Source: Acidobacteriota bacterium (GTDB lineage Bacteria > Acidobacteriota > Thermoanaerobaculia > Multivoradales > JAGPDF01). Taken from it: a stretch of DNA of 64,000 nt. Each line of letters opens with the position of its first letter. Position 1 is the stretch's first letter. The notes beneath the pieces are model-generated. The model made no database searches. It worked only from the letters and a program-made list of their open reading frames with translations, and was not told the origin of the DNA. The DNA lies in contig JACTMI010000008.1 in assembly GCA_014584695.1 (NCBI GenBank), forward strand, positions 79,333-143,332, in the 5' to 3' direction. Shown here in pieces: positions 26,519-63,915 of the stretch. Position numbers and translations under genes: made by a program.

Positions 26519-27469
26519 TCAGTCAGAGGCCTCGCCCAGCGCCCGCCAGACCTGCCCGCGCGCCGCCGCCAGCCGGGTCCGCGCCTCGGCGGGCGAGAGT
26601 CCGAGCCGGCCCGCCACCAGGGCGATCTTGACCTCTCCGCCGCTCGCCTCGAGCCACCGCGCCGCGGTCTCGCGGTCCACTCCCCCGGCGGCGGCGACGA
26701 TGCGCAGCGCGCGGTCACGCAGCTTCGCCGAGCCGGGGCGCAGGTCCACCATCCAGTTGCGGTAGGCCTTGCCGAGGCGGACCATGGCGGCGGTGGTGAT
26801 CGCGTTGAGCGCGGCCTTGGTGGCGGAACCGGCCTTGAGGCGCGTCGAGCCGGTGAGAACCTCGGGACCGGTGGCGAGCGCGATCACCAGATCGGCCCGG
26901 TCCGCCACCGCGCCGGGGGCGGCGCAGGTCAGCAGCACCGTGCGCCCGCCGCGCGCGCGCGCGGCGCTCAGCGCGCCCGCGACGTAGGGGGTCACCGAGC
27001 TGGCGGAGACGGCGATCAAGAGATCTCCGCTGGAGAGCCCGGCCGCCGCTTCCACTCCATCCTCCACGCGGTCCTCCGCCCCTTCGCGAGCGTGGAAGAC
27101 CGCCTCGGGGCCGCCGGCGATCACGGCGCGCAGGCGCGCCGGATCGGTGCCGAACGTCGGCGGGCACTCGGCCGCCTCGAGCACCGCCAGGCGCCCGCTG
27201 GTGCCGGCGCCGGCGATCAGGACTTCGCCGCCGGCGGCGTAGGTCTCGGCCAGCCACTCGGCCGCGCGGGCGATCTCGCCGACCCGCTCGAGCGCCCGCT
27301 CGACGCCGGCGCGATCCTCCGCGAGCAGCAGCGCCACCGCTCGCTCGGTGGGCATCCGGTCGAGCCTCTCGCTCGCCGGATGGCGCGCCTCGGTGGCGAG
27401 TGACGACCACGCCGTCTCCTCCGCGTGGCCGAGTCCCGCTGGGTCTCTCCTCTCCCGGTCTCCGCTCAC
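26519..27469 (-). CDS. murQ: N-acetylmuramic acid 6-phosphate etherase
   Basis: A cytoplasmic SIS-fold lyase that cleaves the D-lactyl ether of MurNAc-6-phosphate to give GlcNAc-6-phosphate, the entry of muramic acid into amino-sugar metabolism. The 316 residues contain the family hallmarks: TEARHPASERLDRMPTERAV at the start, GAGTSGRLAVLEAAECPPTFG, AVSASSVTPYVAGAL and LKAGSATKAALNAITTAAMV, and a C-terminal UBA-like helical part. The GTG at 27469 is chosen because GGAGGAG lies 10 bases upstream and the protein then begins about 20 residues before the TEARxP motif, as in other MurQ proteins. It is divergent from the symporter gene and the amino-sugar operon. Confidence 0.95.
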   Translation of the reverse strand: MSGDRERRDPAGLGHAEETAWSSLATEARHPASERLDRMPTERAVALLLAEDRAGVERALERVGEIARAAEWLAETYAAGGEVLIAGAGTSGRLAVLEAAECPPTFGTDPARLRAVIAGGPEAVFHAREGAEDRVEDGVEAAAGLSSGDLLIAVSASSVTPYVAGALSAARARGGRTVLLTCAAPGAVADRADLVIALATGPEVLTGSTRLKAGSATKAALNAITTAAMVRLGKAYRNWMVDLRPGSAKLRDRALRIVAAAGGVDRETAARWLEASGGEVKIALVAGRLGLSPAEARTRLAAARGQVWRALGEASD

Positions 27470-27574: not shown

Positions 27575-28897
27575 ATGCTCGAGGCCCTGACGCGCGGAGT
27601 CACGACGGTCAGCAACCTGGTCTGGGGACCCTGGACGATCGCGCTGCTGTTCGGCACCGGGATCTTCCTCACCCTCCGCTTCCGCTGCGTCCAGGTCACC
27701 CGCCTGGGCCGAGCGTTGAGGTCGCTGCGACCCGCCGCGGCGGAGGGTGCCGCCGGCGCGCTGACCCCGTTCCAGGCTTTCATGACCGGGCTCGCGGGCT
27801 CGGTCGGTACCGGCAACATCGCCGGCGTCGCCACCGCGATCGTCGCCGGCGGGCCCGGGGCGGTCTTCTGGATCTGGTGCTACGGCTTCTTCGCCACCGC
27901 CGTCAAGCTGGCCGAAGCGATGCTCGCCGTCCGTTTCCGGCGCCCCGACGCCGCCGGGCTCTCGGCGGGGCCGATGCACTACCTCGAGCAGGGTCTCGGG
28001 CAGCGCTGGCTCGGTCTGCTCTATGCCGCGATCGCCGGCGTCGCCGCGCTGACCACCACCCCCTTCACCCAGCCGAACTCGATCGCGGTGGCGTTCGAGA
28101 GCGAGCTCGGCGTCCCGCGCTGGGCCTGCGGCGTCGCGCTCGCGCTGCTCACCTGGATGGTGGTCATCGGCGGCGTCCGCTCGATCGGCCGGGCGGCGGA
28201 GCGGCTGGCACCGGCCATGGTCGTGCTCTACCTGGTCGGCGGCTTGGTGGTGATCGTCACCTTCGCCGGCCGCATCCCGGAGGTCCTGGCGACCATCCTC
28301 ACCGCGGCGTTCTCGACCGAGGCGGCGGCCGGCGGCGCGGCCGGCACCGGCATGATGCTGGCGGTGCGCTACGGCTTGGCGCGCGGCATCTACGCCAACG
28401 AGGCCGGCTACGGCACCGCCGCGGTCGCCTACGGCAGCGCCCGTTCGGCGCGGCCGGCGCAGCAGGGGCTCAACGCGATGGTCGAGGTCTACATCGTCTC
28501 CTTCGTCACCTCGAGCGTCAGCGCGCTCACCATCCTGCTGAGCGGCGCCGCGATCGGCGGCGCGACCAGCACCTCCCTGGTCGCCGCCGCCTTCGGCTCG
28601 GTGATCCCCTTCGGCGGCTACCTGGTGATGGTCTGCGCGCTGCTGTTCGGCTACACGACGCTGATCGGCTGGGGCTACTACGGCGAGCAGTTCCTCGCCT
28701 ATCTCGCCGGGCCGCGGATCATCGTCCCCTACCGTTGGCTCTATTGCGCCCTGGTCGTCCTCGGCGCCACCACGAGCGTCGAGCTGGTCTGGTCCTGGGG
28801 CGACCTCATGAACGGCCTGCAGATCTTCCCCAATCTCGTCGGCGTGCTCGGCCTGTCGGGCGTGGTCGCCAAGATGTTGCGCGACGACCCGCGCTGA
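27575..28897 (+). CDS. AGCS-family sodium:alanine/glycine symporter
   Basis: A 440-residue inner-membrane transporter with about eleven helices that takes up alanine or glycine with sodium. Family signatures are clear: GPWTIALLFGTGIFLTLRF at the start, the sodium-site region AGSVGTGNIAGVATAIVAGG, TTPFTQPNSIAVAF and YGLARGIYANEAGYGTA. AGCS carriers can also transport D-alanine, a murein breakdown product. Divergent from murQ and followed by the kinase gene 62 bases on, so it may form part of a wall-recycling locus. Confidence 0.93.
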   Translation: MLEALTRGVTTVSNLVWGPWTIALLFGTGIFLTLRFRCVQVTRLGRALRSLRPAAAEGAAGALTPFQAFMTGLAGSVGTGNIAGVATAIVAGGPGAVFWIWCYGFFATAVKLAEAMLAVRFRRPDAAGLSAGPMHYLEQGLGQRWLGLLYAAIAGVAALTTTPFTQPNSIAVAFESELGVPRWACGVALALLTWMVVIGGVRSIGRAAERLAPAMVVLYLVGGLVVIVTFAGRIPEVLATILTAAFSTEAAAGGAAGTGMMLAVRYGLARGIYANEAGYGTAAVAYGSARSARPAQQGLNAMVEVYIVSFVTSSVSALTILLSGAAIGGATSTSLVAAAFGSVIPFGGYLVMVCALLFGYTTLIGWGYYGEQFLAYLAGPRIIVPYRWLYCALVVLGATTSVELVWSWGDLMNGLQIFPNLVGVLGLSGVVAKMLRDDPR

Positions 28898-28924
28898 GCG
28901 CCCGAGGCGTCCGAAGCCGCGTGC

Positions 28925-28959
28925 TAGGCTTTCGCCTCGCTTCGACGGATGCCCCGCGC
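28925..28959 (+). promoter_or_regulatory. Possible -10 box of the amino-sugar operon
   Basis: TAGGCT at 28925-28930 lies about 29 bases before the TTG chosen as kinase start. If real it rules out the in-frame GTG at 28921. No strong ribosome site. Confidence 0.35.
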
Positions 28960-29898
28960 TTGCGTTACGTCATCGGAATCGACGCCGGAGGGACCAAGAC
29001 GGTCGGCCTGCTCGCCGACGAGTCCGGCGCCGTGCTGCGCGAGGCGCGCGGTGGCGGCGCCAACCTGCGCGCGCACGGCGAGCTGGGCGTCGAGAAGTCG
29101 CTCTTCCAGGTGATCGACGCGCTCGACTCACCGCGGCCGGTCGACGCGCTCTGCCTGGGCATCGCCGGCGTCGGGCGCGAAGCGGATCGGCTGGTGGTGC
29201 GCGACCTGCTGCGCCGGCTCGGCATCCGCAAGGCGGTGTCGATCGTCACCGACGCGCTCGTCGCGCTGGTGGCCGGCGCACCAGACGGCCACGGCATCGT
29301 GCTGGTCGCCGGCACCGGGTCGATCGCCTACGGCGTCGACCCTTCGGGCCGGAGCGCCCGCTCCGGCGGCTGGGGCTACCTGCTGGGCGACGAGGGGTCG
29401 GCGTTCTGGCTCGGGCACGCCGCCGTGCGCCTGGGGATCCGCGCCGCGGACGGCCGCGGTCCGGCGACGACGCTCTACGCCCGGATCCTCGCGCGGCTCG
29501 AGCTCGCCGAGCCGGCCGACCTGGTCGAGTGGTTCTACGACCAAGAGCTGTCGCGCACGCGCGTGGCGCAGCTGGCGCGGGTGGTCGAAGAGGCGGCCGC
29601 CGAGGGCGACGAATCGGCGCAGGACCTGCTCGACCAGGCCGCCCGCCACCTGACGCGCGCGGCGCGGGCCGTGGACCGGCAGCTCGAGTTCCCCGGCCCC
29701 TACCCGCTGGTGCTCTCCGGCGGTGCCTTCCGCGCCTGCCCCAGCCTCGCGCGCCGCATCGAGGCCCGTCTCGACGACCTGCCCGACGCGCGCGTGGTCC
29801 GGCTCGAAGTCGAGCCGGCCAACGGCGCCGTCCTGCTCGCGCTCCGGCTGCTCGCCGCGAGCGACGCCGCCGACCGGCCGGAGCCAGCTCCCTCGTGA
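28960..29898 (+). CDS. BadF/BadG-type ATPase, N-acetylglucosamine (amino-sugar) kinase
   Basis: A 312-residue sugar kinase of the ASKHA superfamily. Phosphate-1 motif YVIGIDAGGTKTVGLL is at the very N-terminus, phosphate-2 VLVAGTGSIAYG is in the middle with GGWGYLLGDEGSAFWLG, and the adenosine loop LVLSGGAF is near the end. This is the family of human NAGK and of bacterial GlcNAc/MurNAc kinases (MurK), which phosphorylate free amino sugars from cell-wall recycling. With MurQ nearby, phosphorylation of both GlcNAc and MurNAc would be consistent. The TTG start at 28960 is uncertain. Its stop overlaps the chbG start (GTGA). Confidence 0.88.
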   Translation: MRYVIGIDAGGTKTVGLLADESGAVLREARGGGANLRAHGELGVEKSLFQVIDALDSPRPVDALCLGIAGVGREADRLVVRDLLRRLGIRKAVSIVTDALVALVAGAPDGHGIVLVAGTGSIAYGVDPSGRSARSGGWGYLLGDEGSAFWLGHAAVRLGIRAADGRGPATTLYARILARLELAEPADLVEWFYDQELSRTRVAQLARVVEEAAAEGDESAQDLLDQAARHLTRAARAVDRQLEFPGPYPLVLSGGAFRACPSLARRIEARLDDLPDARVVRLEVEPANGAVLLALRLLAASDAADRPEPAPS

Positions 29899-30647
29899 GC
29901 CGCTGCCTGATCGTCAACGCCGACGACCTCGGCCGCAGCACCGGCATCAACGACGGCATCTTCGAGGCGCACCGGCGCGGGCTGGTGTCGAGCGCCACGC
30001 TGATGGTCGGTTTCGCCGCCGCCCGTGACGCCGCGGCTCGGCTCGCCGAATACCCGTCGCTCGGCGTCGGCCTCCACGTCACCTTGACCGGCGCCCGGCC
30101 GACGCTGCCGCCCGAGCGCGTCGCCAGCCTGGTCGACGCCGCCGGGCGGCTGCCGCGCCGGCCGGAGGCGATCGCCGGCTTCGACCCCGCCGAAGCGCGC
30201 GCCGAGATCGAGCATCAGCTGCGGCTCTTTTACGTGCTCACCGGCCGCGCACCGACCCATCTCGACAGCCATCACCACGCCCACGCCGTACCCGTGGTGC
30301 TCGACCAGATGGTCGCCGTGGCGCGCGCGGCGGCGCTGCCGGTCCGCAGCTCCACGCCGGCGATCGCCGAGCGGCTGCGCGCCGAGGGGATCCCGACGAC
30401 CGACCGCTTCGTCGATGCCTTCTACGGTGACGGCGCGACGCTCGAGCGGCTGCTCGAGATCCTGCGCGAGACCGGCGAGGGGACCACGGAGGTGATGTGC
30501 CACCCCGGGCGCGCCGACGACGAGCTGCGGCGGGAGAGCGCCTACGCCGAACCGCGGGAACGCGAGGTCGAGCTGCTCTGTCACCCGGCCGCGCTCGCGC
30601 TGCGCCGCGAGCTCGGTCTCGAGCTCACGCGCTTCGGAGCCCCGTGA
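29895..30647 (+). CDS. chbG: YdjC/ChbG-family carbohydrate deacetylase
   Basis: A 250-residue metal-dependent deacetylase. NADDLG (the metal/catalytic aspartates) is at residues 7-12, GLHVTLTG and DSHHHAHAVPVV supply histidine ligands, and EVMCHPG is near the end. ChbG of E. coli removes one acetyl group from chitobiose and chitobiose-6-phosphate. Here it lies between an amino-sugar kinase and a NagB homologue, where the GlcNAc-6-phosphate deacetylase NagA would be expected, so it may do that job. It overlaps both neighbours by 4 bases, indicating strict co-translation. Confidence 0.88.
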   Translation: MSRCLIVNADDLGRSTGINDGIFEAHRRGLVSSATLMVGFAAARDAAARLAEYPSLGVGLHVTLTGARPTLPPERVASLVDAAGRLPRRPEAIAGFDPAEARAEIEHQLRLFYVLTGRAPTHLDSHHHAHAVPVVLDQMVAVARAAALPVRSSTPAIAERLRAEGIPTTDRFVDAFYGDGATLERLLEILRETGEGTTEVMCHPGRADDELRRESAYAEPREREVELLCHPAALALRRELGLELTRFGAP

Positions 30648-31393
30648 AGGTCCGGACGGTCGCCGACGCCGCCGCCGCCGCGCGCGCGGCCGCCCGCCGG
30701 ATCGCTGCAGCAGCCGAGCTCCGGCCCGAGCTCGTCCTCGGCCTGCCGACCGGCCGGACCATGGTCCCGCTCTACGGCGAGCTCGCCCGCCGCCACGCCG
30801 CCGGCGAGCTCGCGCTCGGCCGCGCGCGCGCCTTCAACCTCGACGAGTTGCTGCTGCCGCGCGACCATCCGGCCAGCTTCCGCGCCTACATGGCGCGACA
30901 CGCCTGGGAGCGGATCGGACTCGACCGGGCGCGCTGCGAGATCCCGGACGCCGAGGCCGAAGCCGCGGCCGAATGCCGGCGCTACGAAGGCGCCCTCGCC
31001 GCCGCCGGCGGGCTCGACCTGGCGATCCTCGGCCTGGGGGCCGACGGCCATATCGCCTACAACCTCCCCGGGCCGCCCGAGTCGGTCACCCACGTCGTCA
31101 CCCTCCCCACCCCCCTCGCCGACCAGCTCCAGGTGCCAGCCGATTGGCGGCCCCTGCGCGCGATCACGCTCGGCCTCGGGGCCTTCCTGGGCGCCCGCCA
31201 GCTGCTGGTACTCGCCACCACGGCGGACAAGCTCGAAGCGGTCCGGGCGCTCCTCTCCGGCCGGCCCGACCCACGCTGGCCCTGCTCGCTGCTCGCCGGC
31301 CACGCCGCCCTCGAGCTCCTGCTGACGCCGGAGTCCACCCCCCCGCCCGGCGGAGATCCCGGGCAACCGGAACGGGAATCGGCTGGCACCTGA
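30644..31393 (+). CDS. NagB-family glucosamine-6-phosphate deaminase homologue, altered active site
   Basis: A 249-residue member of the NagB/6-phosphogluconolactonase fold. Substrate phosphate loop LGLPTGRTMVPLYGELARRH and the catalytic-base region FNLDELLLPRDHPASFRAYM match glucosamine-6-phosphate deaminases (SYR/SF Y-M helix). The catalytic stretch reads GLGADGHIAYNLPGPP, where NagB has DGHIAFNEP: Asp and His are kept, but the glutamate of the catalytic triad is replaced by leucine. It may still act on glucosamine-6-phosphate, or on another sugar phosphate. Position after a kinase and a deacetylase strongly suggests amino-sugar catabolism to fructose-6-phosphate. It overlaps both flanking genes. 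Confidence 0.85.
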   Translation: MKVRTVADAAAAARAAARRIAAAAELRPELVLGLPTGRTMVPLYGELARRHAAGELALGRARAFNLDELLLPRDHPASFRAYMARHAWERIGLDRARCEIPDAEAEAAAECRRYEGALAAAGGLDLAILGLGADGHIAYNLPGPPESVTHVVTLPTPLADQLQVPADWRPLRAITLGLGAFLGARQLLVLATTADKLEAVRALLSGRPDPRWPCSLLAGHAALELLLTPESTPPPGGDPGQPERESAGT

Positions 31394-32838
31394 TGAGCCT
31401 CTCGGCGCTCGACGGCGGGCTGCTCGCCGCTTACCTGCTCGCGGTCCTGGCGTGGGGACTCTGGATCGGTCGCGGCACCTCGACGGCGTCGGACTACATG
31501 CTCGGCGGGCGCCATCTGCCCTGGTGGGTGATCCTCTTCTCGATCGTCGCCACCGAGACCTCGACCGTCACTTTCCTCTCGATTCCCGGTTTCGCCTACG
31601 GCCGCGACCTGACCTGGCTGCAGATTCCGCTCGGGTTCCTGCTCGGCCGCTACCTGGTCGCCTGGCTGTTGCTGCCGCGCTACTTCGAGGGCAACCTGTT
31701 CACCGCCTACGAGGTCCTGCGCGAGCGCTTCGGCGGCGGCGCCCAGCGCGCGGCGTCGGTACTGTTCGTCGTCACGCGCAGCCTCGCCGACGGGCTCCGG
31801 CTCTTCCTCTCCGCGCTCGTCCTGCAGGAGATGACCGGCATCGCCCTGCCCTGGGCGGTGATCGCCCTCGGCGTCACGACCATCGTCTACACCTACGCCG
31901 GCGGCATGCGCGCGGTGCTGTGGACCGACCTCGTGCAGTTCGTGGTCTACATCGGCGGCGCCCTGCTGGCGCTCGGCCTGCTGCTCGACCGGCTGCCGGA
32001 CGGCTTCGCCGGCCTGCTGGCGGCCGGCGGCGAGGCCGGGAAGCTCCACGTCCTCGATCTGCGCCTCGACTGGGCCGAACCCTACGCGCTCTGGACCGGG
32101 CTCCTGGGCGGCGCCTTCGTCACCCTGGGCTCGCACGGGGTCGACCAGATGATGGTGCAGCGCTACCTCTGCGCCCCCTCCCTGCGCGACGCGCGGCGCG
32201 CCCTGGTGGTGAGCGGCTACGTCGTGGTCGCGCAGTTCGCGCTGTTTCTGCTGATCGGCGTCGGCCTGTTCCTGTTCTACCAGCTCCATCCGCCGGCGGT
32301 CCCCTTCGAGCGCACCGACCGCGTCTTCGCCCGCTTCATCCTGGACGAGCTGCCGGTGGGGGTGGTCGGGATCCTGCTCGGCGCCATCTTCGCCGCGGCG
32401 ATGTCGACGCTCTCTTCCTCGCTCAACTCGTGCGCCACGGCGGTCACGCGGGACCTCTACCTGCCGCTCGCCGGGGCGCGCGCCAACCCGGTGAAGGAGC
32501 TGCGGGTGACGCGCGCCATGACCGCGGTCTTCGGCGTCGTCCAGATCGCCGTCGGCATCGGCGGACTCTGGCTCGAGTCGACGGTGGTCGCGAGCGTGCT
32601 CGGAATCGCCGCGTTCACCACCGGCATCGTGCTCGGGATCTTCTTCCTCGGCCGCTTCGCCCCGCGCGTCGGCCAGCGCGCCGCGCTCGCCGGTCTGGTG
32701 ACCGGCTTCGCCGCCATGACCGCGATCTACTTCGCCACACCGCTCGCCTGGACCTGGTACGCGCTGGTCGGCTCCGCCATCACCTTCGCCTCCGGCTGGG
32801 CCGCCAGCCACCTCTGGCCGCGCGCGCGGCCGGCCTGA
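31393..32838 (+). CDS. Sodium:solute symporter (SSS family), probable amino-sugar transporter
   Basis: A 481-residue membrane carrier with about thirteen helices. Hallmarks are the N-terminal YMLGGRHLPWWVILFSIVAT, the sodium-site region ETSTVTFLSIPGFAYGRDLT and DQMMVQRYLCAPSLRDARRA, with LLGAIFAAAMSTLSSSLNS in the TM8-9 region that binds sodium. SSS carriers in similar operons take up N-acetylglucosamine, MurNAc, sialic acid or disaccharides. Its ATG overlaps the NagB-like stop by one base (TGATG), so the operon order is kinase, deacetylase, deaminase, carrier. Confidence 0.92.
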   Translation: MSLSALDGGLLAAYLLAVLAWGLWIGRGTSTASDYMLGGRHLPWWVILFSIVATETSTVTFLSIPGFAYGRDLTWLQIPLGFLLGRYLVAWLLLPRYFEGNLFTAYEVLRERFGGGAQRAASVLFVVTRSLADGLRLFLSALVLQEMTGIALPWAVIALGVTTIVYTYAGGMRAVLWTDLVQFVVYIGGALLALGLLLDRLPDGFAGLLAAGGEAGKLHVLDLRLDWAEPYALWTGLLGGAFVTLGSHGVDQMMVQRYLCAPSLRDARRALVVSGYVVVAQFALFLLIGVGLFLFYQLHPPAVPFERTDRVFARFILDELPVGVVGILLGAIFAAAMSTLSSSLNSCATAVTRDLYLPLAGARANPVKELRVTRAMTAVFGVVQIAVGIGGLWLESTVVASVLGIAAFTTGIVLGIFFLGRFAPRVGQRAALAGLVTGFAAMTAIYFATPLAWTWYALVGSAITFASGWAASHLWPRARPA

Positions 32839-46304: not shown

Positions 46305-49300
46305 CTATGGCGCCCGGCACGCATCGCCGTAGAGCAGCGCCGATCGGGTCTCGTGCCACCAAGCGTCGGCGCCTGCCATGCTGGACCCGGTGATCGATTC
46401 GTCGCCACGCCGACGGACCTCGAGGAGCACTTCCGGCGTCCCGGTCAGCCAGGTCAGGGCCTCACCTCCGCGCAGCCACTCGAACCGCGGTTGCCGCGAC
46501 AGCTCGCGCAGTAGCTCGATCCCCAGGCGGTAGCCGTCCGCGACGTCGGGATCCGTCACCTCGATCCGGAACCCCGCGCACTCGACATCGCGGTACTTGG
46601 GATCAGGCGCCTCCGGAGAGGCTCGCGGCGTGAATCGCGTCGGCGCGAGCCGGAAGCCGGGCACGGTGACCGCCACTTGCGCCGGGTCGAGCCAGGGAGC
46701 GCCGATGCGCAAGAACGGTGCTTCGGTGCCCCGCCCCTCCGAGACGTTCGTCGCCTCGAGCAACGCGATCCCGGGGTAGGCGAGCGCCGCCTCGGCGCTG
46801 CGCAGGTTCGGCGACGGCGCTACCCACCGCCGCCCCGTCGCCGGCCAGGTCATCTCCCGGCGCCAGCCCGCCATCGGGACCACCGTGAGCCGCGCCGGCC
46901 GCGCCCGCCGAGCGTTGGCGTAGCGCGCCATCTCGCCCATCGTCAGGCCGTGAACCAACGGCCCGGGGGCGCGACTGACCAGACTGAGTGGGACCTCCTC
47001 GGGCGGCGCCCGCCGAGGTCCGGCGACCCTCCTGCCCCCGAGCGGGTTGGGGCGGTCGAGCACGATCAACTCGATGTCCGCCTCCGCGGCCGCGTCGAGG
47101 CAGAGCAAGAGCGTGCTCGCGTAGGTGTAGAAGCGGACCCCGGCATCCTGCAGATCGAACACCAGCGCATCGAGGCCCGCCAGATCCTCCGCCGTCGGCT
47201 GCGGGTGACCTCCGTAGAGGCTCACCACCGGCAGTCCGCTCTCGCCGTCGATGCCGCTCGGGACACTCTCTCCCGCCGCCGCCAACCCGCGCAGCCCGTG
47301 TTCCGGCGAGAACAGCCGGACGAGATCGAGCCCCTGTTCGCGCAACACCGCGATCGCGTGGCGGCCGTCCGTGGTGACCGAGGCGGCATGGGCGACCAGA
47401 CCGAGCCGCTTGCCCGCGAGCGGCGCGGCATCTCCGGCCGCGATCCGATCGAGCCCGACCTGCACGGCGGCGGGGCCTCCGACTTCGATCTCTCGGTCCG
47501 GATCCGACAGAGCCCGGATCACGGCGTCCGCTAGCGCCGGTCGCACCGCCGCGATCTTCCGGTTCTCTCGCGTCGGGTGGACACGGTTCGTGAGCAGGAT
47601 GAGGAACAGGTCGCGCCCCGGGTCGATCCAGATCGACGTCCCGGTGAAGCCGGTGTGCCCGAACGAGTCGCCCGAGAAGAGCTCCCCGGCCGAGGATCCG
47701 GACGGCGACTTGGTATCCCAGCCGAGCGCCCGCGAGGAGCCCTCCGGGCTCCCCGCCGCCCGCGTGAACAGCTCGACCGTCTCTCGCCGCACGATCCGCT
47801 GGCCGCCGTAGGCCCCTTTCCAGAGCAGCATCTGCGCGAACCGCGCGAGGTCCCGCGCCGTTCCGAACAGTCCGGCGTGCGGCGCGACGCCGCCCAGCGC
47901 GAATGCGTTCTCGTCGTGGACCTCGCCGTGGACGACGCGTCCGCGCCAGGGATCGAATTCCGTCGGCGCGATGCGCGTCGCGAGCCGGGCCTCCGGCCGC
48001 CATCCCGTATCTCGCATGCCGAGCGGCTCGAACAGTCGCTCGCGCACCAACTCGTCGACGGGCCGGCCGGCGACGCGCTCGAGAACCTCCCCGAGCAGCA
48101 GGATGCCGAGGTCGCTGTACCTCATCTGCGCGCCCGGCTCCGAGACGAGCGGCATCGAATAGATGCGGTCCAGAAACGCCGCGCGGCCGGAGAGCTCGCG
48201 ATAGAGCGGCGCCCACCAGTCGATCCCCGAGCTGTGGGTCAGCAGGTGACGGACGGTGACGCGGTCCTTCCCGCTTCCAGCGAAGCGCGGGAGAAAGCTC
48301 GCCACGCGAGCGTCGAGATCGAGCCGCCCCTCGTCGACCAGCAACATCGCCGCGGTGGTCGTCGCAACGACCTTGGTCAGGCTCGCGAGATCGTAGATCG
48401 TGTCGGCCTCGACCTGGGGGGCATCCGGCGCATAGGTCTGCCGTCCGAAAGGCCGCAAGTGCGCGAGCCGGCCGTTCCTGCCGATCGCCACGACTCCGCC
48501 CGGGAAGGCGCCGTCGGCCACCGCCGCCGCGATCAGCCGGTCGACCTCGGCCAGCCCCTCCGGCCGGAAGCCCGCGGTTTCCGGCGAGGAGGGCTCCAAC
48601 TCGAGGCGGCGCGCCGGCCGCTCGATGCCATGTCCGAACGGCGCGACGCCCGGGATCGTGACCGGCAGCTTGCCGGCGATCGGATGCTCTCCGAACAGCG
48701 CCGCGACCGCCGCGCGCTGGCTCGACTCCTCCGCCCCGTAGGCGCACAGATAGACGGGCACGGAGGGGAACTGGGTGAGCAGATACGGGCTGCCGTACGA
48801 GACCACGATCACCGGCGTGCCGCCGGCGGCGAGCCGCTCGACCAGCGCCGCGTGCGTCGCGTCCATGTCGGCGCGCCCCTTCGACGAGGTCACGCGGACG
48901 AAGGCCGAGACGACGACGTGCGTGAAGCCGGGAGCGAGAGCGGCGATCTCGCCGGCGGTCACCTCGGAGATCGCCGGTCCGAGCCGCTTGGTCATCGACA
49001 CGGCGCCCCTGCGCGCCAGCTCGGCCTCCGGCAGCCCGACGATCGCCGCGTTGACCCAGTCGCTCGAGGCCACCAGGTGGAGGATCCGCAGCGGGTCCTC
49101 GATCCGCAGCGGCAGCGTCCGCCGGTCGTCGCGCACCAGCGTGATCGCCGCGCGCGCGATCTCGTCGGCGCGCCGCAGGTCGTCCGGGCGACCGATGTCC
49201 GAGCGGCGGGCCCGGAGCTCCCGCTCGCGCTCGGCGCGGCTCCGATGGAGCCCGAGGCGCGCCTTGGCGGCGAGGATCCGCGCCACCGACGCCTCGATCC

Positions 49301-50414
49301 GCTCGGGCGTGAGCAGCCCCTCCTCGACCGCGCGCAGCAGCGACCGCACCGCCACGCGGGGGTCGGCGGGCAGCAGGACGACGTCGGCCCCGGCCGCGAC
49401 GGCCTCGACCACCGCCTCGCCCATCCACACGCCGCCGACGCCGCGCATCTCCATCGCGTCGGTCACCACCAAGCCGTCGAAGCCGAGCTCGCCGCGCAGC
49501 AGGCCGGTCGAGATCGGGCGGGATAGCGTCGCCGGCCGGCCGCTCGGATCGAGCGCCGGCACGGCGAGGTGACCGACCATCACCGAGTCGACGCCGGCGG
49601 CGATCGCGGCGCGGAACGGTGCGAGCTCGACCCGATCGAGCCGCGCGCGGTCACCCGGAATCGTCGGCAGCTCGAGGTGGCTGTCGAGCGCGGTCTCGCC
49701 GTGGCCGGGGAAGTGCTTGGCGGAGGTCAGGATCCCCCCAGCTCGCGCCCCTTCGACGAAGGCGGCGACCAGCTCCGCGACCAGCTCGGGCCGTTCGCCG
49801 AACGAGCGCAGGTTGATGATTGGATTGGCGGGGTCGCTGTTGACGTCGGCGACCGGGGCGAAAGCCCAGTGGATCCCGGCCGCGCGCCCCTCGCGGGCCG
49901 TCAGCTCGCCTGCGAAGCGCGCCGCCGCGACGGACCGCGTCGCACCCAGCGCCATCGCGTCGGGCAGCGGCGTCGAACCCGACACCACCCGGAAGGAGAG
50001 GCTCCGCTCGAGATCGGAGGCCACCAGGAGCGGCACCGGTGCGGCATCCTCGAGCTCGGCGATCAGCCGCGGGATCGAATCGACCTCCGAGCGGAAGAGC
50101 ACGACGCCACCCACGCCGAGCTCGGAGACCTCGGCGGCGAGCGCCCGGCGCTCCGGAGTGGCGGGATGGTCAGGGCGCCCGTAGGCCCGCACCATCACCA
50201 TCTGCCCGACCCGGCCGGCGAGGTCGAGGCGGCGAAGCGTCGCTTCCGCCCAGGCTCGGCCGTCCGCATCGAGGCCGTCGAAGGCCAGGCGGAGGGAATC
50301 GGGTCCCGGCGCCTCGGGCGAGCTCCCGACACCGCCCGACCGGCAGGCCCAAGTGCCAGCCGCCAGCACCAGGACGCCGGCCGACAACAGACCCCTCCAA
50401 CGCCGGGCGCTCAC
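46305..50414 (-). CDS. Trifunctional murein-recycling lipoprotein: NagZ (GH3) - AmiE-type serine amidase - NamZ (DUF1343) fusion
   Basis: A 1369-residue exported protein, probably a lipoprotein (signal peptide ending AAGTWAC, Cys24). Part 1 (about 40-595) is a NagZ-type GH3 beta-N-acetylglucosaminidase: KHFPGHGETALDSH (234-246, holding the Asp/His dyad) and the nucleophile D319 in LVVTDAMEMRG, with a GH3 C-terminal domain. Part 2 (about 610-970) is a penicillin-binding-fold serine hydrolase like AmiE: S678xxK681 (DLASLTKV), Y766 (RYSDLG) and HTG (920-922). Part 3 (about 985-1369) is DUF1343/NamZ: LFSPEHG, VFDLQDAGVRFYTYAS, DRPNPLGG. In Bacillus these are three genes whose products strip GlcNAc, peptide and MurNAc from wall fragments. 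It overlaps the M14 peptidase gene by 4 bases. Confidence 0.92.
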   Translation of the reverse strand: MSARRWRGLLSAGVLVLAAGTWACRSGGVGSSPEAPGPDSLRLAFDGLDADGRAWAEATLRRLDLAGRVGQMVMVRAYGRPDHPATPERRALAAEVSELGVGGVVLFRSEVDSIPRLIAELEDAAPVPLLVASDLERSLSFRVVSGSTPLPDAMALGATRSVAAARFAGELTAREGRAAGIHWAFAPVADVNSDPANPIINLRSFGERPELVAELVAAFVEGARAGGILTSAKHFPGHGETALDSHLELPTIPGDRARLDRVELAPFRAAIAAGVDSVMVGHLAVPALDPSGRPATLSRPISTGLLRGELGFDGLVVTDAMEMRGVGGVWMGEAVVEAVAAGADVVLLPADPRVAVRSLLRAVEEGLLTPERIEASVARILAAKARLGLHRSRAERERELRARRSDIGRPDDLRRADEIARAAITLVRDDRRTLPLRIEDPLRILHLVASSDWVNAAIVGLPEAELARRGAVSMTKRLGPAISEVTAGEIAALAPGFTHVVVSAFVRVTSSKGRADMDATHAALVERLAAGGTPVIVVSYGSPYLLTQFPSVPVYLCAYGAEESSQRAAVAALFGEHPIAGKLPVTIPGVAPFGHGIERPARRLELEPSSPETAGFRPEGLAEVDRLIAAAVADGAFPGGVVAIGRNGRLAHLRPFGRQTYAPDAPQVEADTIYDLASLTKVVATTTAAMLLVDEGRLDLDARVASFLPRFAGSGKDRVTVRHLLTHSSGIDWWAPLYRELSGRAAFLDRIYSMPLVSEPGAQMRYSDLGILLLGEVLERVAGRPVDELVRERLFEPLGMRDTGWRPEARLATRIAPTEFDPWRGRVVHGEVHDENAFALGGVAPHAGLFGTARDLARFAQMLLWKGAYGGQRIVRRETVELFTRAAGSPEGSSRALGWDTKSPSGSSAGELFSGDSFGHTGFTGTSIWIDPGRDLFLILLTNRVHPTRENRKIAAVRPALADAVIRALSDPDREIEVGGPAAVQVGLDRIAAGDAAPLAGKRLGLVAHAASVTTDGRHAIAVLREQGLDLVRLFSPEHGLRGLAAAGESVPSGIDGESGLPVVSLYGGHPQPTAEDLAGLDALVFDLQDAGVRFYTYASTLLLCLDAAAEADIELIVLDRPNPLGGRRVAGPRRAPPEEVPLSLVSRAPGPLVHGLTMGEMARYANARRARPARLTVVPMAGWRREMTWPATGRRWVAPSPNLRSAEAALAYPGIALLEATNVSEGRGTEAPFLRIGAPWLDPAQVAVTVPGFRLAPTRFTPRASPEAPDPKYRDVECAGFRIEVTDPDVADGYRLGIELLRELSRQPRFEWLRGGEALTWLTGTPEVLLEVRRRGDESITGSSMAGADAWWHETRSALLYGDACRAP

Positions 50415-52117
50415 CGATCCCCCGGCGATAACTCGATGCCTCCCAGGAAGATCCGCTCCAACTCCCCCGACAGCGGGTCCTCCCCCGCCGCCGCGACGAC
50501 CAGGAAATCGGCTGGCACCTCGGGGCGCAGGGGGTGGCTCCAGAGGGCGGCGAGGCGGGCGGTTGGCGGGGCGGGCGGGGCGGCCGTCGCTCGTTCGAGC
50601 GCCCCGACCTGGGCGGCCAGGCTCGGTTCGGCCGGCCGCTCGAGCCGGCGCTCCAGCCGCCGACGCGGCAGGTCGGATCGGTCCGTCGTCACCTCGAGCG
50701 CGGGCCGGCGCGGGCCGCTGAGCTCCGCCGCCCGCCGCAGCGCACCCTCCAGCCGCCGCTCCGGGACCCACCAGCGCACCTTCGCCACGCCGCTGCGCGC
50801 CAGGGCTTCGAGGCCCGGGCCGTCGAGCAGCCGCCGGGCCCGCCAGCCCTCGGCGCCGACCACGAACGCCGGCAGGATCCGCCGCCCCGTGGCGTCGATC
50901 TCCCGCCCGGCGCCGAAGACGTGGGCGTCGCCCAGCTCGACGATCTTCGACCTCGGCGGCCCCACCGCGGCGCAGCCCTCCCGCTCGCGATCGCTCACCA
51001 GCTGGTCGAAGGCGAGATCGGCCCGATAGCGCGTGAGCCCCCGCCCGTCGCCGCCGATCGGCTGCAGCAGCTCGCCGCCGCGCAACGCGACGTCCGCCCA
51101 GACGTCGGCGTTGTTCTCCGGCAGGGCCGCGTAGTCTGCCGGGTCGAAACCGGCCAGATCGTCACGCGCCAGCTCGCCCAGCACGAAGCCGAGGGCGACG
51201 AAATTGAGGCGCGTCAGCTCGGCGAGCGAGCTTTCCGCCGGCACGCCGCCGCTCTCGACCAGCAGCACCGGCGTCCCCCACGCCGTCACCTGGTCGCCGA
51301 AGGAACGCGGGCTGTAGCTGTCGTCGAAGCGCGCCAGCCCCCCGGGCGCGAAGGGCTCGATCGCCGTTGCCACCGCCGCGCCCGCGCGCATCGCGCGCAG
51401 TCGCCCCGGCGTCACCGTCTTCTCGGCGTCGCCCACCACCGCGAGCACCGCGCCGGCGGCCAGTCTGCGTGTCTCGCCCACCGTCCGCCGCCGATTCTGG
51501 TCGTGGAGGTTGAAGCCCAGGATCGGCCGGTGCTCCTCGCGCAGGCGCGCCAGCAGGCGCCCCTCCGGAGTCGCGAGGTGGAGCGCGTCGCGGTTGACAT
51601 CGATCCCCTGCGCGTTGCGGCGCGTGTAGCGCTCGGCGCCGTCCGGGTTGAGCATCGGCACCATCACCAGCGTCAACCGGTCCAGCAGGCGCGCGACCTC
51701 GGGCTCCCCAGCGCGGCTCAGCAGGTAGTCGGCCAGATCGAGCAGCGCCGGCGTCGCCGAGGGCTCGTCGCCGTGCATCTGCGACCAGAGCAGCACGCTC
51801 GCCGGCCCCGCTCCGAGAATCATCCGGTGGATCGGGCGCCCCTCGACCGAGCGCCCCACCTCCTCCAGCCGCAGGGCGCCGGGATGGCGGCCGGCGAGCT
51901 CGCGCAGCCGCTCCTCGAGCTCGGCCGGCCGCAGGCAGGGCGCGACGGTCTGGACCACTCGCGCCGCGGGCCACGCTGCCCAGAGCGTCCGCGGCGTCAA
52001 CGGCTCGGCGGCGCCCGCCGGCGGCGCGGCGAGCGGGAGGCCGAGCGTCAGGAGGAGGATCGGGTAGGCCCGCGCGACGCGGATCGTCGGGGCTCGGCTG
52101 GTCGGAGCTCGGCTCAT
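50411..52117 (-). CDS. M14-family zinc carboxypeptidase, secreted
   Basis: A 568-residue exported metallopeptidase; signal peptide to about residue 37 (PPAGAAEP). The zinc ligands H115 and E118 are in WSQMHGDEPSA, the third, H205, in GFNLHDQN, with substrate-binding N174-R175 in GIDVNRD and catalytic E288 in LLVESGG. The sequence after about residue 330 is a long, less conserved C-terminal region. M14 enzymes of the Mpl/MpaA-type group cut D-Glu-DAP or other wall peptides, which would suit its operon: symporter, this peptidase and the murein-recycling fusion. Other peptide substrates are possible. It overlaps both neighbours (ATGA and GTGA), so the three are co-translated. Confidence 0.9.
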   Translation of the reverse strand: MSRAPTSRAPTIRVARAYPILLLTLGLPLAAPPAGAAEPLTPRTLWAAWPAARVVQTVAPCLRPAELEERLRELAGRHPGALRLEEVGRSVEGRPIHRMILGAGPASVLLWSQMHGDEPSATPALLDLADYLLSRAGEPEVARLLDRLTLVMVPMLNPDGAERYTRRNAQGIDVNRDALHLATPEGRLLARLREEHRPILGFNLHDQNRRRTVGETRRLAAGAVLAVVGDAEKTVTPGRLRAMRAGAAVATAIEPFAPGGLARFDDSYSPRSFGDQVTAWGTPVLLVESGGVPAESSLAELTRLNFVALGFVLGELARDDLAGFDPADYAALPENNADVWADVALRGGELLQPIGGDGRGLTRYRADLAFDQLVSDREREGCAAVGPPRSKIVELGDAHVFGAGREIDATGRRILPAFVVGAEGWRARRLLDGPGLEALARSGVAKVRWWVPERRLEGALRRAAELSGPRRPALEVTTDRSDLPRRRLERRLERPAEPSLAAQVGALERATAAPPAPPTARLAALWSHPLRPEVPADFLVVAAAGEDPLSGELERIFLGGIELSPGDR

Positions 52118-53925
52118 CGGGTTTCGACTTCCTGGACGGCGAGCCGGCGGGTCGCGCGCGACCAGAGGGCTCGAATGAGGAGCGCAGCCACGGCCGCGAC
52201 CGCCGCGAGCGCCAGCGCGCGCAGCGGCCGGCCGTAGAGCGCCGCGCCGGTGGCGAAGAGCGCCGCGTAGACCGCCGCCGCGCCGAGCGCCGCGCAGGCG
52301 ATGCCCGCCGGCAGCTCGCCCAGACCCGCCGGCAGCGGCTCGCCCGCCGCGGCGGCCCGCTGGCGCACCCGCGTCCACCCGGGCCCGCCGGGACGGGTCG
52401 CGCGGACGAAGCGGCGGAGCGTGGCCTCGTCGGTCGCCGGGCCGAGCAACGCGGCGGTCACCCAGGCCACCGTCGTGATCGCCACCCCGGTCACCAGCTG
52501 CCGCCACTCGGGCAGCGGCGCGAAGCCGAGCGCCCCGTGGACGAACTGGAAGTAGACCGCGACCAGGAACGAGACCCCCATCGCGACCACTTCGGAGACC
52601 GCGTTGACCCGCCACCAGAACCAGCGCAGCAGGAACAGGGCGCCCGTTCCGGCGCCGATCTGGAGCAGGATCTGGAAGGCCTGGAGCGCGTTCGACAGCA
52701 GCAGGGAGACGCCGCCCGCGGCGGCCATCAACCCCAGGGTCGCCCAGCGGCCGAAACGGACCAGCTCGCGCTCGGTCGCCGCCGGCGCGACGAAACGGCG
52801 GTAGAAGTCGTGGACGAGGTAGGAGGCGCCCCAGTTGAGATGGGTCGAGATGGTCGACATGTACGCCGCCGCGAGCGAGGCGACGACGATCCCCAGCAGC
52901 CCGGCCGGCAGGAACGTGAGCATCGCCGGGTAGGCGAGGTCATCGCGCAGGACCCGCGGATCGACCCCCGGGAAGGCGGCGCGCAGCGCGTCGAGATCGG
53001 GGAAGACGACCAGCGAAGCGAGCGCCACCAGGATCCAGGGCCAGGGCCGCAGCGCGTAGTGGGCGACGTTGAACAGCAGCGTCGCGCCCTGCGCGTGCGC
53101 CTCGCTCTTCGCCGCCAGCATCCGCTGCGCCACGTAGCCGCCGCCGCCCGGCTCGGAGCCGGGGTACCAGACGCTCCACCACTGCACCGCGAGCGGCACC
53201 AGGAGGAGGCTGACGAACAGCGCCGGGTCGGAGGCGTCGGGCAAGAAGTCGAGCCGCGCGGCGACCGCGGGGTGCGCGAGCAGCCCGTCGAGCCCGCCGA
53301 CCTCCGGCCGCCGCAACGCCCACACCGCGGCCGCCACCGAACCCGCCATGGCGACCGTGAACTGCAGGAAGTCGGTGATCAGCACGCCCGTCAGGCCGCC
53401 CAGCATCGCGTAGACAACGGTCACCGCGCCCGCGATCACCACCGTCTGGACCGGCGTCAGGCCGAGCAGCACGCCGCCGATCTTGATCGCGGCGAGCGTC
53501 ACCGAGGCCATGATCATGATGTTGAAAAAGGCCCCCAGATAGATCGCCCGGAACCCCCTCAGGAAGCGCGCCAGCCGGCCCGAGTAGCGCAGCTCGTAGA
53601 AGCCGACGTCGGTCTCGACCCCGGAGCGCCGCCAGAGACGGGCGTAGACGAAGGTCGTGGTCATGCCGGTGAGCAAGAAGGCCCACCAGATCCAGTTGCC
53701 GGCGACGCCGCGGGTGCGCACGATGTCGGTGACCAGGTTCGGCGTGTCGGTCGAAAACGTCGTCGCGACCATCGACACGCCGAGCAGCCACCAGGGCATC
53801 CGCCGCCCCGACAGGAAGAACTCCCCGGCGGAAGAGCCCGCCCGCCGCGTCACCGCCAGCCCCACCGCCAGCGACAGCGCCAGAAACCCGACCACGAACA
53901 CCCAGTCGATCGTCTGCAGCCTCAC
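52114..53925 (-). CDS. Sodium:solute symporter (SSS family) of the murein operon
   Basis: A 603-residue polytopic carrier with about fourteen helices. SSS hallmarks: EFFLSGRRMPWWLLGVSMVA, TFSTDTPNLVTDIVRTRGVA, a central YMSTISTHLNWGASYLVHDF and the C-terminal extra helices. The GTG at 53925 follows an excellent AGGAGGTG ribosome site and a TAGACT box (53960-53955). Position as first gene of an operon with a wall peptidase and the triple murein hydrolase suggests uptake of a released sugar, amino acid or peptide, perhaps MurNAc or anhydro-free GlcNAc. Substrate is inference. Confidence 0.92.
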   Translation of the reverse strand: MRLQTIDWVFVVGFLALSLAVGLAVTRRAGSSAGEFFLSGRRMPWWLLGVSMVATTFSTDTPNLVTDIVRTRGVAGNWIWWAFLLTGMTTTFVYARLWRRSGVETDVGFYELRYSGRLARFLRGFRAIYLGAFFNIMIMASVTLAAIKIGGVLLGLTPVQTVVIAGAVTVVYAMLGGLTGVLITDFLQFTVAMAGSVAAAVWALRRPEVGGLDGLLAHPAVAARLDFLPDASDPALFVSLLLVPLAVQWWSVWYPGSEPGGGGYVAQRMLAAKSEAHAQGATLLFNVAHYALRPWPWILVALASLVVFPDLDALRAAFPGVDPRVLRDDLAYPAMLTFLPAGLLGIVVASLAAAYMSTISTHLNWGASYLVHDFYRRFVAPAATERELVRFGRWATLGLMAAAGGVSLLLSNALQAFQILLQIGAGTGALFLLRWFWWRVNAVSEVVAMGVSFLVAVYFQFVHGALGFAPLPEWRQLVTGVAITTVAWVTAALLGPATDEATLRRFVRATRPGGPGWTRVRQRAAAAGEPLPAGLGELPAGIACAALGAAAVYAALFATGAALYGRPLRALALAAVAAVAALLIRALWSRATRRLAVQEVETR

Positions 53926-54035: not shown

Positions 54036-55724
54036 ATGAGAATCTGGGGACTCGTAGGGGCCGCGGGCGCCCTGGCCGGGCTCGCGATCGGCTGCGCGAG
54101 CGGACCGCGCGGGGAGACTACGGCACGGGAGGTCGAGGTGGCCGTTCACGACGTGCTGCTGCGGGGCGGGACGATCTACGACGGCGGTGGCGGGGCGGCG
54201 TTCGTCGCCGACGTCGCGATCGACGGCGACCGCATCGTGGCGATCGGCGAGCTCGCCGGCGCGCGCGGCAGGCTCGACCTCGACGTCTCCGGCCTGGCGG
54301 TGGCGCCCGGTTTCGTCAACATGCTGAGCTGGGCCGACGAGTCGCTGCTGGTCGACGGCCGCTCGCTCTCGGACATCGTCCAGGGGGTGACGCTCGAGGT
54401 CTTCGGCGAGGGGACCTCGATGGGTCCGCTCTCGGAGCCGATGCGTGAACGGCTGCTCACCAACCAGAGCGAGCTGCGCTACGAGGTCCCCTGGACGACG
54501 CTCGCCGGCTACCTCGCGCACCTCGAGGCCAAGGGGGTGTCGACCAACGTCGCTTCCTTCGTCGGCGCGGCCACCGTGCGCATCCACGAGCTGGGTTACG
54601 AGGATCGCGCGCCGACTCCGGAGGAGCTCGATCGAATGCGCTCCCTGGTCGCCGCGGCGATGCGCGAGGGGGCGATGGGGGTCGGCTCCTCGCTCCCCTA
54701 CATCCCCGCCGCCTTCGCCTCGACCGACGAGCTGGTGGCACTCGCCGAAGTCGCCGCCGCCCACGGCGGCATGTACATCTCGCACATCCGCGACGAAGGC
54801 GGTCAATTACTCGAGTCGCTCGACGAGCACCTCGAGATCCTCCGCCGCTCCGGCGCGCGCGGCGAGGTCTACCACTTCAAGGCCTCCGGCAAGGCCAACT
54901 GGGGCAAGTTCGACGCCGCCATCGCCAAGCTCGAGGCCGCGCGCGCCCAAGGGCTCGCCGTCACCGCCGATGTCTATCCCTACCCGGCGAGCTCGACGGG
55001 CCTGACCTACGCGCTGCCGGCCTGGGTGCAAGAGGGCGGACTCGAGAAGATGCTCGAGCGGATCGCCGACCCGGAGATCCGCGCGCTGGTGCTGCCCGAG
55101 CTCAGCCTGATCCCGCCCGAGGACCTGCTGCTGATCGAGTTCCGCAATCCCGCGTTGCGCCGCTACGTCGGCTGGACGCTGGCCGCCGTCGCCGCCGAGC
55201 GCGGCACCTCGCCGGAACAGACGCTGTTCGACCTGCTGGTCGAAGACCGGAGTCGGATCGGCACCGTCCGTTTCACGATGAGCGAGGAGAACGTCCGCAA
55301 GGCGATCGCCCTCCCCTGGGTCTCGTTCTGCTCCGACGGCGAGTCGGTCGCGCCCGAGCCGCCGTTCACCCACTCGCAGCCCCACCCGCGCTCCTACGGC
55401 AGCTTCGCGCGCATCCTGGGCAAGTACGTGCGCGAGGAGGGGGTGCTGCCGCTCGCCGAGGCGATCCGCAAGCTCACGGGCTTGCCGGCCGAGAACCTCC
55501 GCCTCGACCGGCGCGGCCGCCTGCTCACCGGCTACTTCGCCGATGTCGTGGTCTTCGATCCCGCGACCGTGATCGACCGCGCGACCTTCGAGCGCCCGCA
55601 CCAGCTGGCGACCGGTGTTCAACATGTCCTCGTCAACGGAGTGCCGGTGATCAGCGACGGCGCGCACACCGGCGCCACCCCGGGGCGCTTCGTGCGCGGA
55701 CCGGGCGTGGAGGTGAAGCGATGA
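54036..55724 (+). CDS. D-aminoacylase (amidohydrolase) homologue lipoprotein lacking the HxH metal motif
   Basis: A 562-residue exported lipoprotein (lipobox LAIGC, Cys20). The fold is that of N-acyl-D-amino-acid deacylases, which release D-amino acids from N-acyl forms. The normal metal motif after PGF (H-x-H-x-D) reads L97-S-W99-A-D101, and the metal-bridging cysteine position is E126 (VFGEGTSMGP). Other ligand-type histidines remain: H250 in YISHIRDE and H280 in VYHFKASGKANW, and an aspartate in FCSDGES. So a one-metal or altered enzyme is likely. It is divergent from the murein operon and overlaps a serine hydrolase gene (ATGA), so it may act in the same process. Confidence 0.85.
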   Translation: MRIWGLVGAAGALAGLAIGCASGPRGETTAREVEVAVHDVLLRGGTIYDGGGGAAFVADVAIDGDRIVAIGELAGARGRLDLDVSGLAVAPGFVNMLSWADESLLVDGRSLSDIVQGVTLEVFGEGTSMGPLSEPMRERLLTNQSELRYEVPWTTLAGYLAHLEAKGVSTNVASFVGAATVRIHELGYEDRAPTPEELDRMRSLVAAAMREGAMGVGSSLPYIPAAFASTDELVALAEVAAAHGGMYISHIRDEGGQLLESLDEHLEILRRSGARGEVYHFKASGKANWGKFDAAIAKLEAARAQGLAVTADVYPYPASSTGLTYALPAWVQEGGLEKMLERIADPEIRALVLPELSLIPPEDLLLIEFRNPALRRYVGWTLAAVAAERGTSPEQTLFDLLVEDRSRIGTVRFTMSEENVRKAIALPWVSFCSDGESVAPEPPFTHSQPHPRSYGSFARILGKYVREEGVLPLAEAIRKLTGLPAENLRLDRRGRLLTGYFADVVVFDPATVIDRATFERPHQLATGVQHVLVNGVPVISDGAHTGATPGRFVRGPGVEVKR

Positions 55725-57214
55725 TCTGTTCGACGCGGAACGATCTCGGCGGCTCGGCGGTCGCGCTCGCGCTGGGAATCTCGATCGCGCTCGCCGCCAC
55801 GGGCCAGGGCCGCTCGGCCGAGCCCGGCCTGGCGCAGCACCCGAAGGTCGCCGACGCCATCCGGCTCTACGACCTCTGGGCCGGCGAGCAGCTCGCCTAC
55901 CACGGCGTCCCCGGCGTCGCCATCGGCATCGTCCACGGCGGCGAGCTGGTCTGGGCGCGCGGTTACGGCGTCGCCGACCTCGCGACCGGCGAGCCGGTGA
56001 CCCCCAGGACGCTCTTCCGCATCGGCTCGGTGACCAAGCTCTTCACCGCCACCGCGATCCTGCAGCTGCGCGACGCCGGCAAGCTCCGGCTCGACGACCC
56101 GGTGGCGCGCCACTTGCCCTGGTTCCAGATCGAGTCGCCGTTCCCGGATGCCCCGGCGATCACGATCGAGCACCTCCTGACCCACACCTCCGGCTTGCCG
56201 CGCGAGGGGGCCTTCCCGTACTGGACGACGCACGAGTTCCCGACGCCAGCAGCGCTGCGCGCCGCGCTCCCCACCCAGAGCGCGATCCACCCGCCGGGCG
56301 AGACGTACAAGTACTCGAACCTCGGCATGGCGCTGCTCGGCGAAGTCGTCACCGCGGTCGCCGGCGAGCCCTGGGCGGCTTACGTCCAGCGCCACATCCT
56401 GGCGCCGCTCGGGATGACCGCGAGCTCCGCCGCGCCGGACGCGGAGCTGATCGGCCGGCTCGCCCGCCAGCACCGCCGCAAGCAGCCGGACGGCGGCCGC
56501 GGCAGCCTCGACTACTACGAGACAGACGCCATCGCCCCGGCGGCCGCCGTGGTCTCGACGATCGAGGATCTCGCCCGCTTCGCCGCGCTCCACCTCTCCG
56601 CCGGCCCGGCGGGGCCACCGGCCGGGGGCGCGCAGATCGTCGCCGGTCCGACGCTCGCCGAGATGCACCGCGCGCGCTTCGTGCTGCCGAGCTGGACCAG
56701 CGGCCGCGGCCTCGGCTTCGCCGTCTCGCGGCGCGACGGCCGGACGCTGGTCGCGCACGGCGGCTGGATCGGCGGCCACCGCGCCGACCTGGTGCTCGAC
56801 CCCACCCGACGGCTCGCCGTGGTGACGCTCACCAACGCCGACGACGCCAGCCCCGCCCTCTTCGGCCGCAAGGCGCTCGACGTCGTGGGCGGCGCGATCG
56901 CCGTGGCGACCGCGCCGCCGCCCGCGCCGGCGCCAGGGCCCGACCCCTCCTGGCGGGCCTATCTCGGCCGCTACACCGACCCTTGGGATTGGGAGTCCGA
57001 GGTCCTGATCCTGGACGGAGCTCTCACGCTCTACGACCACGGCTATCCGCCCGACGACGACCCGGACAGCGCGATCATCCGCCTGACACCCACCGGCGCG
57101 CCCCATACGTTCAAGATGTCCGACGGCGAGACGGTCCGCTTCGAGCTCGACGAGCGCGGCGAAGTCGTCCGGCTCTGGCGCCGCTACGAGTACCTGACGC
57201 CGATTCGGCCCTGA
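55721..57214 (+). CDS. Secreted class C beta-lactamase-fold serine hydrolase
   Basis: A 497-residue exported hydrolase with a signal peptide (about 1-33, ending RSAEPG). Penicillin-binding motifs: SxxK in FRIGSVTKLFTATAI, YxN in YKYSNLGMALLGEVV, and HGG (VAHGGWIGG) in place of KTG, as in AmpC-related esterases and D,D-peptidases. A C-terminal beta extension (about 410-497, LGRYTDPWDWESEVLILDG) resembles the small lipocalin-like domain found in such enzymes. The ATG overlaps the stop of the D-aminoacylase-like gene, so both are in one operon. Possible roles: D-amino-acid amidase or muropeptide hydrolase; not resistance-specific. Confidence 0.9.
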   Translation: MICSTRNDLGGSAVALALGISIALAATGQGRSAEPGLAQHPKVADAIRLYDLWAGEQLAYHGVPGVAIGIVHGGELVWARGYGVADLATGEPVTPRTLFRIGSVTKLFTATAILQLRDAGKLRLDDPVARHLPWFQIESPFPDAPAITIEHLLTHTSGLPREGAFPYWTTHEFPTPAALRAALPTQSAIHPPGETYKYSNLGMALLGEVVTAVAGEPWAAYVQRHILAPLGMTASSAAPDAELIGRLARQHRRKQPDGGRGSLDYYETDAIAPAAAVVSTIEDLARFAALHLSAGPAGPPAGGAQIVAGPTLAEMHRARFVLPSWTSGRGLGFAVSRRDGRTLVAHGGWIGGHRADLVLDPTRRLAVVTLTNADDASPALFGRKALDVVGGAIAVATAPPPAPAPGPDPSWRAYLGRYTDPWDWESEVLILDGALTLYDHGYPPDDDPDSAIIRLTPTGAPHTFKMSDGETVRFELDERGEVVRLWRRYEYLTPIRP

Positions 57215-63824: not shown

Positions 63825-63915
63825 CCCCGGCGGCCCTCCTCGTCCCCCGGCGGGCCCCATCGCGGCGCCCCCCTTGGTCGGTAACGGTATCCGATGAGAA
63901 GCTCGCCGGCACGCG

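Follow-up and report, generated by a model that had tools for sequence, protein, structure and literature searches.

The window analysed, a stretch of 64,000 nucleotides in all, contains on its minus strand one open reading frame that starts with GTG at 50414 and runs to 46305, with zero internal stops in its translation. The encoded protein joins GH3, S12 and NamZ domains in a single chain. The frame, its domains and the genes around it are as follows:

46305..50414, minus strand: GH3-S12-NamZ triple protein, 1369 amino acids, GTG start
49269..50213, minus strand: GH3 N-terminal catalytic domain (NagZ-like), residues 68-382 (Pfam GH3_N, 1e-77)
48648..49142, minus strand: GH3 C-terminal domain, residues 425-589 (Pfam GH3_C, 37 bits, cut-off 31)
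47553..48545, minus strand: S12 (beta-lactamase fold) serine hydrolase, residues 624-954 (Pfam PF00144, 7e-76)
46794..47402, minus strand: NamZ N-terminal domain, residues 1005-1207 (PF07075, 8e-70, 235 bits)
46329..46781, minus strand: NamZ C-terminal domain, residues 1212-1362 (PF20732, 1e-26, 95 bits)
50411..52117, minus strand: M14 peptidase, probably exported, directly upstream in the same operon, weakly similar to the MpaA murein tripeptide amidase
52114..53925, minus strand: sodium:solute symporter, first gene of the operon
54036..55724, plus strand: divergent amidohydrolase (Amidohydro_3 family, possibly D-aminoacylase-like)
55721..57214, plus strand: divergent second S12 serine hydrolase, which adjoins the fusion also at loci L032, L036, L037 and L043

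The Pfam domains follow one another in the order GH3_N, GH3_C, Beta-lactamase/S12, NamZ_N and NamZ_C, each above its cut-off. The GH3 domain belongs to the NagZ family by its GH3_N match together with the Asp-His dyad motif KHFPGHGETALDSH at residue 233 (KHFPGHG..DSH) and the Asp nucleophile D319 within VVTDAMEM, while the S12 assignment combines the PF00144 match with S678LTK (S678xxK681), Y766 and H920TG (HxG), the Tyr motif being YSD and not YxN; the GH3 and S12 motifs are all conserved in the homologous fusions. Both NamZ matches lie above their cut-offs, placing the last part in NamZ/GH171, and the motif at residue 1085 reads VFDLQDAGVRFYTY, where homologous fusions usually read LQGAGVRFYTY. 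A sequence-only reading of this DNA had claimed three complete catalytic domains (GH3, beta-lactamase, DUF1343/GH171) with their signature residues, and the domain search and the motifs at these positions bear it out.

Structure prediction agreed with these assignments. The GH3-S12 model (pLDDT 89.6, pTM 0.86) had B. subtilis NagZ as its top Foldseek match, with NagZ holding bound GlcNAc-MurNAc among the nearest structures, and the S12-NamZ model (pLDDT 88.0, pTM 0.56) found the DUF1343 structures 4k05 and 4jja, as well as EstG, near the top. The linker between S12 and NamZ (protein residues 973-980) was modelled with low confidence, and, judging by the models, GH3 and S12 make up one defined unit, with the position of NamZ being loose.

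The N-terminal cysteine of the triple protein sits in TWAC, a poor lipobox that, read by eye, does not match the canonical L-[ASTVI]-[GAS]-C, and most homologues have no cysteine at this position and carry ordinary export-type N-termini. Judged from these N-termini, the triple protein is likely exported; lipid anchoring, which the sequence-only reading had assumed in calling it a lipoprotein, is not supported. The GTG start overlaps the stop codon of the upstream M14 gene (GTGA), so the two genes are probably translationally coupled, and an M14 peptidase gene is also a neighbour of the fusion, or of its split form, in further genomes.

Elsewhere in the window lie genes of amino-sugar and peptide catabolism:

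26519..27361, minus strand: MurQ, MurNAc-6-phosphate etherase (NCBIfam PRK05441, 298 bits, cut-off 168)
27575..28897, plus strand: sodium:alanine symporter
28921..29898, plus strand: BcrAD/BadFG-type sugar kinase, of the Pfam family of T. forsythia MurK (nearest NCBIfam model NagK, below cut-off)
29895..30647, plus strand: YdjC/ChbG-type deacetylase
30644..31393, plus strand: NagB-like glucosamine-6-phosphate deaminase
31393..32838, plus strand: second sodium:solute symporter, with a homologue next to the fusion at L034 and L035
14574..15584, plus strand: dipeptide epimerase or N-acyl-Glu racemase of the enolase superfamily (below cut-off)
15606..17012, plus strand: diaminopimelate decarboxylase LysA (429 bits, cut-off 298)
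2966..4243, plus strand: D-amino acid dehydrogenase-like oxidoreductase (weaker match, below cut-off)
4263..5414, plus strand: NagX-like transmembrane protein (weaker match, below cut-off)

As a point against a joint role in murein breakdown, the fusion is at least 13 kb away from the MurNAc genes in the source genome. At eight loci of relatives (L032, L033, L034, L035, L038, L039, L040 and L042), various of the kinase, YdjC, NagB, symporter, NagX, epimerase and LysA genes are neighbours of the fusion or of the split arrangement. MurQ was present in 13 of 13 genomes that carry the NamZ clade of the triple fusions and in 0 of the 11 compared genomes that do not (p 4e-7 by an exact calculation that ignores kinship, the 11 controls being chosen by us and the genomes being related to one another), a contrast that recurs within one genus (G000 and G003 with, G001 and G002 without). 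AnmK was not found in any of the 12 genomes searched, which fits a release of free MurNAc and not of anhydroMurNAc. A search of 12 genomes for NagA gave no match above the cut-off, so that a later step of the pathway is missing; the YdjC/ChbG gene overlaps nagB (window 29895-31393), and, as a lead only, its product may substitute for NagA as GlcNAc-6-phosphate deacetylase. Two further genes were observed in the window: a DUF819 membrane protein near the dipeptide epimerase (11566-12735), possibly a transporter of murein products, and, at the window edge (62361-63860), a phosphodiester glycosidase (NAGPA) domain with a weak SPOR match.

In B. subtilis, NamZ releases peptide-free MurNAc; its gene, namZ, was earlier called ybbC. 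The B. subtilis genes amiE, nagZ and ybbC come after murQRP, which agrees with the earlier statement that nagZ, amiE and namZ are neighbours there; NagZ takes the terminal GlcNAc, and only after that loss does AmiE cleave off the peptide (PMC5061867). The present locus shares with this system the three enzyme families and the murQ neighbourhood, but the B. subtilis trio, which acts sequentially outside the cell, consists of three separate proteins and relies on PTS uptake by MurP, whereas here there is a single chain, and sodium symporters and a kinase are encoded in its vicinity. The latter arrangement resembles MurT-MurK-MurQ of Tannerella forsythia, which comprises a MurNAc transporter, a BcrAD/BadFG-family kinase and MurQ (PMC5790795); that paper assigns MurT to the sodium symporter superfamily in its introduction and to the major facilitator superfamily in its discussion. 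Unlike the present case, T. forsythia has separate NamZ1 and NamZ2, according to a title cited in PMC10465942, and no triple fusion is described for it in the parts of the open-access literature covered by our search.

Taken together, we consider it probable (roughly 0.78) that the triple protein is an exported three-enzyme hydrolase of murein fragments, which would remove GlcNAc, then peptide, then MurNAc, and whose products would be used by genes of the kind found nearby; the activities, their order, their location and the transported substrates are all deduced from sequence comparison. The GH3 domain would cut off the terminal GlcNAc, the S12 domain would take the stem peptide off the newly exposed MurNAc, and the NamZ domain would release the peptide-free MurNAc and so expose the next GlcNAc, a cycle that could be repeated from the non-reducing end outside the cytoplasm. 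The released peptide would pass to the M14 peptidase, the epimerase, the DAP decarboxylase and D-amino acid enzymes, and the sugars, imported via sodium symporters, to a MurK/NagK-type kinase, MurQ and NagB. That NagZ, an AmiE-like hydrolase and NamZ are joined in one chain is independent evidence for their sequential action on one substrate. Of the earlier label 'three-enzyme murein exolyase', the murein-dismantling trio stands, on the strength of the domains, the motifs, the recurrence of the fusion, its split-operon relatives and the catabolic genes, but 'exolyase' is wrong, the enzymes being hydrolases.

S12 proteins comprise esterases, carboxypeptidases and amidases, and the S12 domain of the triple protein is a putative MurNAc-peptide amidase. 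The pathway could instead run unchanged with this domain acting as a carboxypeptidase or as an esterase, O-acetylated MurNAc being one conceivable substrate, and with another enzyme removing the stem peptide. Such a role would suit the nearest NCBIfam model, the PBP4B equivalog PRK03642, which matched with 181 bits, below its curated cut-off of 385, and the solved structures closest to the S12 part, which are a carboxylesterase and EstG. In favour of the main reading, the domain shares 35% identity with E. coli PBP4B (YfeW), whose gene comes after murQ-murP. We regard the alternative as unlikely, given that genes for S12 proteins of the same subfamily are repeatedly fused with GH3 and NamZ genes or located next to them, and that in the B. 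subtilis trio the amidase is AmiE, whose Pfam assignment is S12 (PMC5061867; PMC10653849).

A GH3 domain acting mainly on chitin oligosaccharides, with the fusion serving general amino-sugar scavenging and not murein, is a far less probable reading. It draws on the YdjC/ChbG protein within the catabolic cluster and on RmNag3 of Rhodothermus marinus, a related GH3-S12 enzyme that is active on acetyl-chitooligosaccharides (PMC6987092), yet it sits poorly with a NamZ domain in the same chain, with the strict co-occurrence with MurQ, and with a DAP decarboxylase and an epimerase in the same window. RmNag3 and the other GH3-S12 fusions, already known as the sequence-only reading had said, are like the triple protein in being exported and in having a C-terminal S12 domain after GH3, but they are without a NamZ domain (PMC6987092).

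In a survey of three-domain chains, a full-length profile was run against 72 genomes from the order (Thermoanaerobaculia, Acidobacteriota) and recovered the complete triple frame in eight, namely G000, G008, G016, G029, G037, G040, G045 and G434. In G023 the frame is interrupted at a contig end, and in G003, of the same genus as G000, the parts are split over two contigs. The homologues examined share ~57-62% identity and keep every motif. That the triple frame is an artefact of assembly or sequencing that merged separate genes, an idea to which the two-gene form in Vicinamibacteria lends some colour, is ruled out by eight complete frames in independent genomes, with motifs intact and S12-NamZ linkers that are short and vary in length.

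Among 396 sampled Acidobacteriota genomes, the full-length profile found the complete triple frame in no order but this one, and phyla beyond Acidobacteriota were covered through the 80 top-ranking loci of a single scan. In other parts of the phylum, nine long frames with NamZ (G387, G414, G371, G176, G422, G229, G222, G297 and G185) were considered as triple fusions and rejected, six being S12-NamZ and three NamZ alone. The plasmid collection held no record covering 80% of the triple protein. GH3/NagZ and DUF1343/NamZ genes lie close together on megaplasmids of Haladaptatus, Halorussus and Halosolutus (H1-H7); archaea produce no murein, and these haloarchaea may scavenge bacterial cell walls. 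An S12 gene of the same subfamily was also seen on a contig labelled Thermoprotei archaeon (L087), reflecting either a binning error or gene transfer.

Three loci, from an Acidobacteria metagenome-assembled genome (L054) and from Vicinamibacteria (L057 and L058), carry a GH3-S12 gene with a separate NamZ gene immediately after it; at L054 and L058 the GH3-S12 stop overlaps the NamZ start (ATGA), and the NamZ N-termini are signal-like. In the NamZ tree the domains of the triple fusions form one group (99/96), and the separate NamZ proteins of these three loci are its nearest outgroups. The simplest reading is that the triple protein arose by a single fusion of operon neighbours, because in the sister group Vicinamibacteria a GH3-S12 fusion stands directly before a separate NamZ gene. 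In G011 GH3-S12 and NamZ are encoded separately, at a distance of 5.4 kb, and in G039 a NamZ from the triple-fusion clade lacks GH3 and S12 alongside; later splitting is therefore likely. Other arrangements found elsewhere are GH3-S12 with a divergent NamZ, S12-NamZ, and three neighbouring genes. A second, stand-alone NamZ of another clade (G000:C10:205782-206948, L044) is found in almost every genome of the order, whatever the MurQ status.

Fusions of S12 with NamZ (DDPept-DUF1343) were listed in 2008 (PMC2605481), and we found them in Hydrogenedentota, Lachnospiraceae, other Acidobacteria, Burkholderia and Cupriavidus. They have S12 and then NamZ in one chain, as here, but are without GH3, and their NamZ domains fall outside the triple-fusion clade in a tree built without the Burkholderia and Cupriavidus sequences. 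No description of a triple GH3-S12-NamZ fusion was found in the open-access papers covered, subscription papers and protein databases lying outside this search, in keeping with the earlier remark that none was known; within that literature, what is new is the triple fusion, the GH3-S12 and S12-NamZ pairs being known already.

One protein might even hand a single glycan strand among its three sites in repeated exo removal of GlcNAc, peptide and MurNAc, a doubtful extension which, if true, would make it a self-contained exo-acting machine degrading murein. The triple protein offers one candidate enzyme for the complete trimming of murein fragments, and with it a direct way to see whether fusion brings any cooperation, and it points to a murein-eating lifestyle in a little-studied acidobacterial class.
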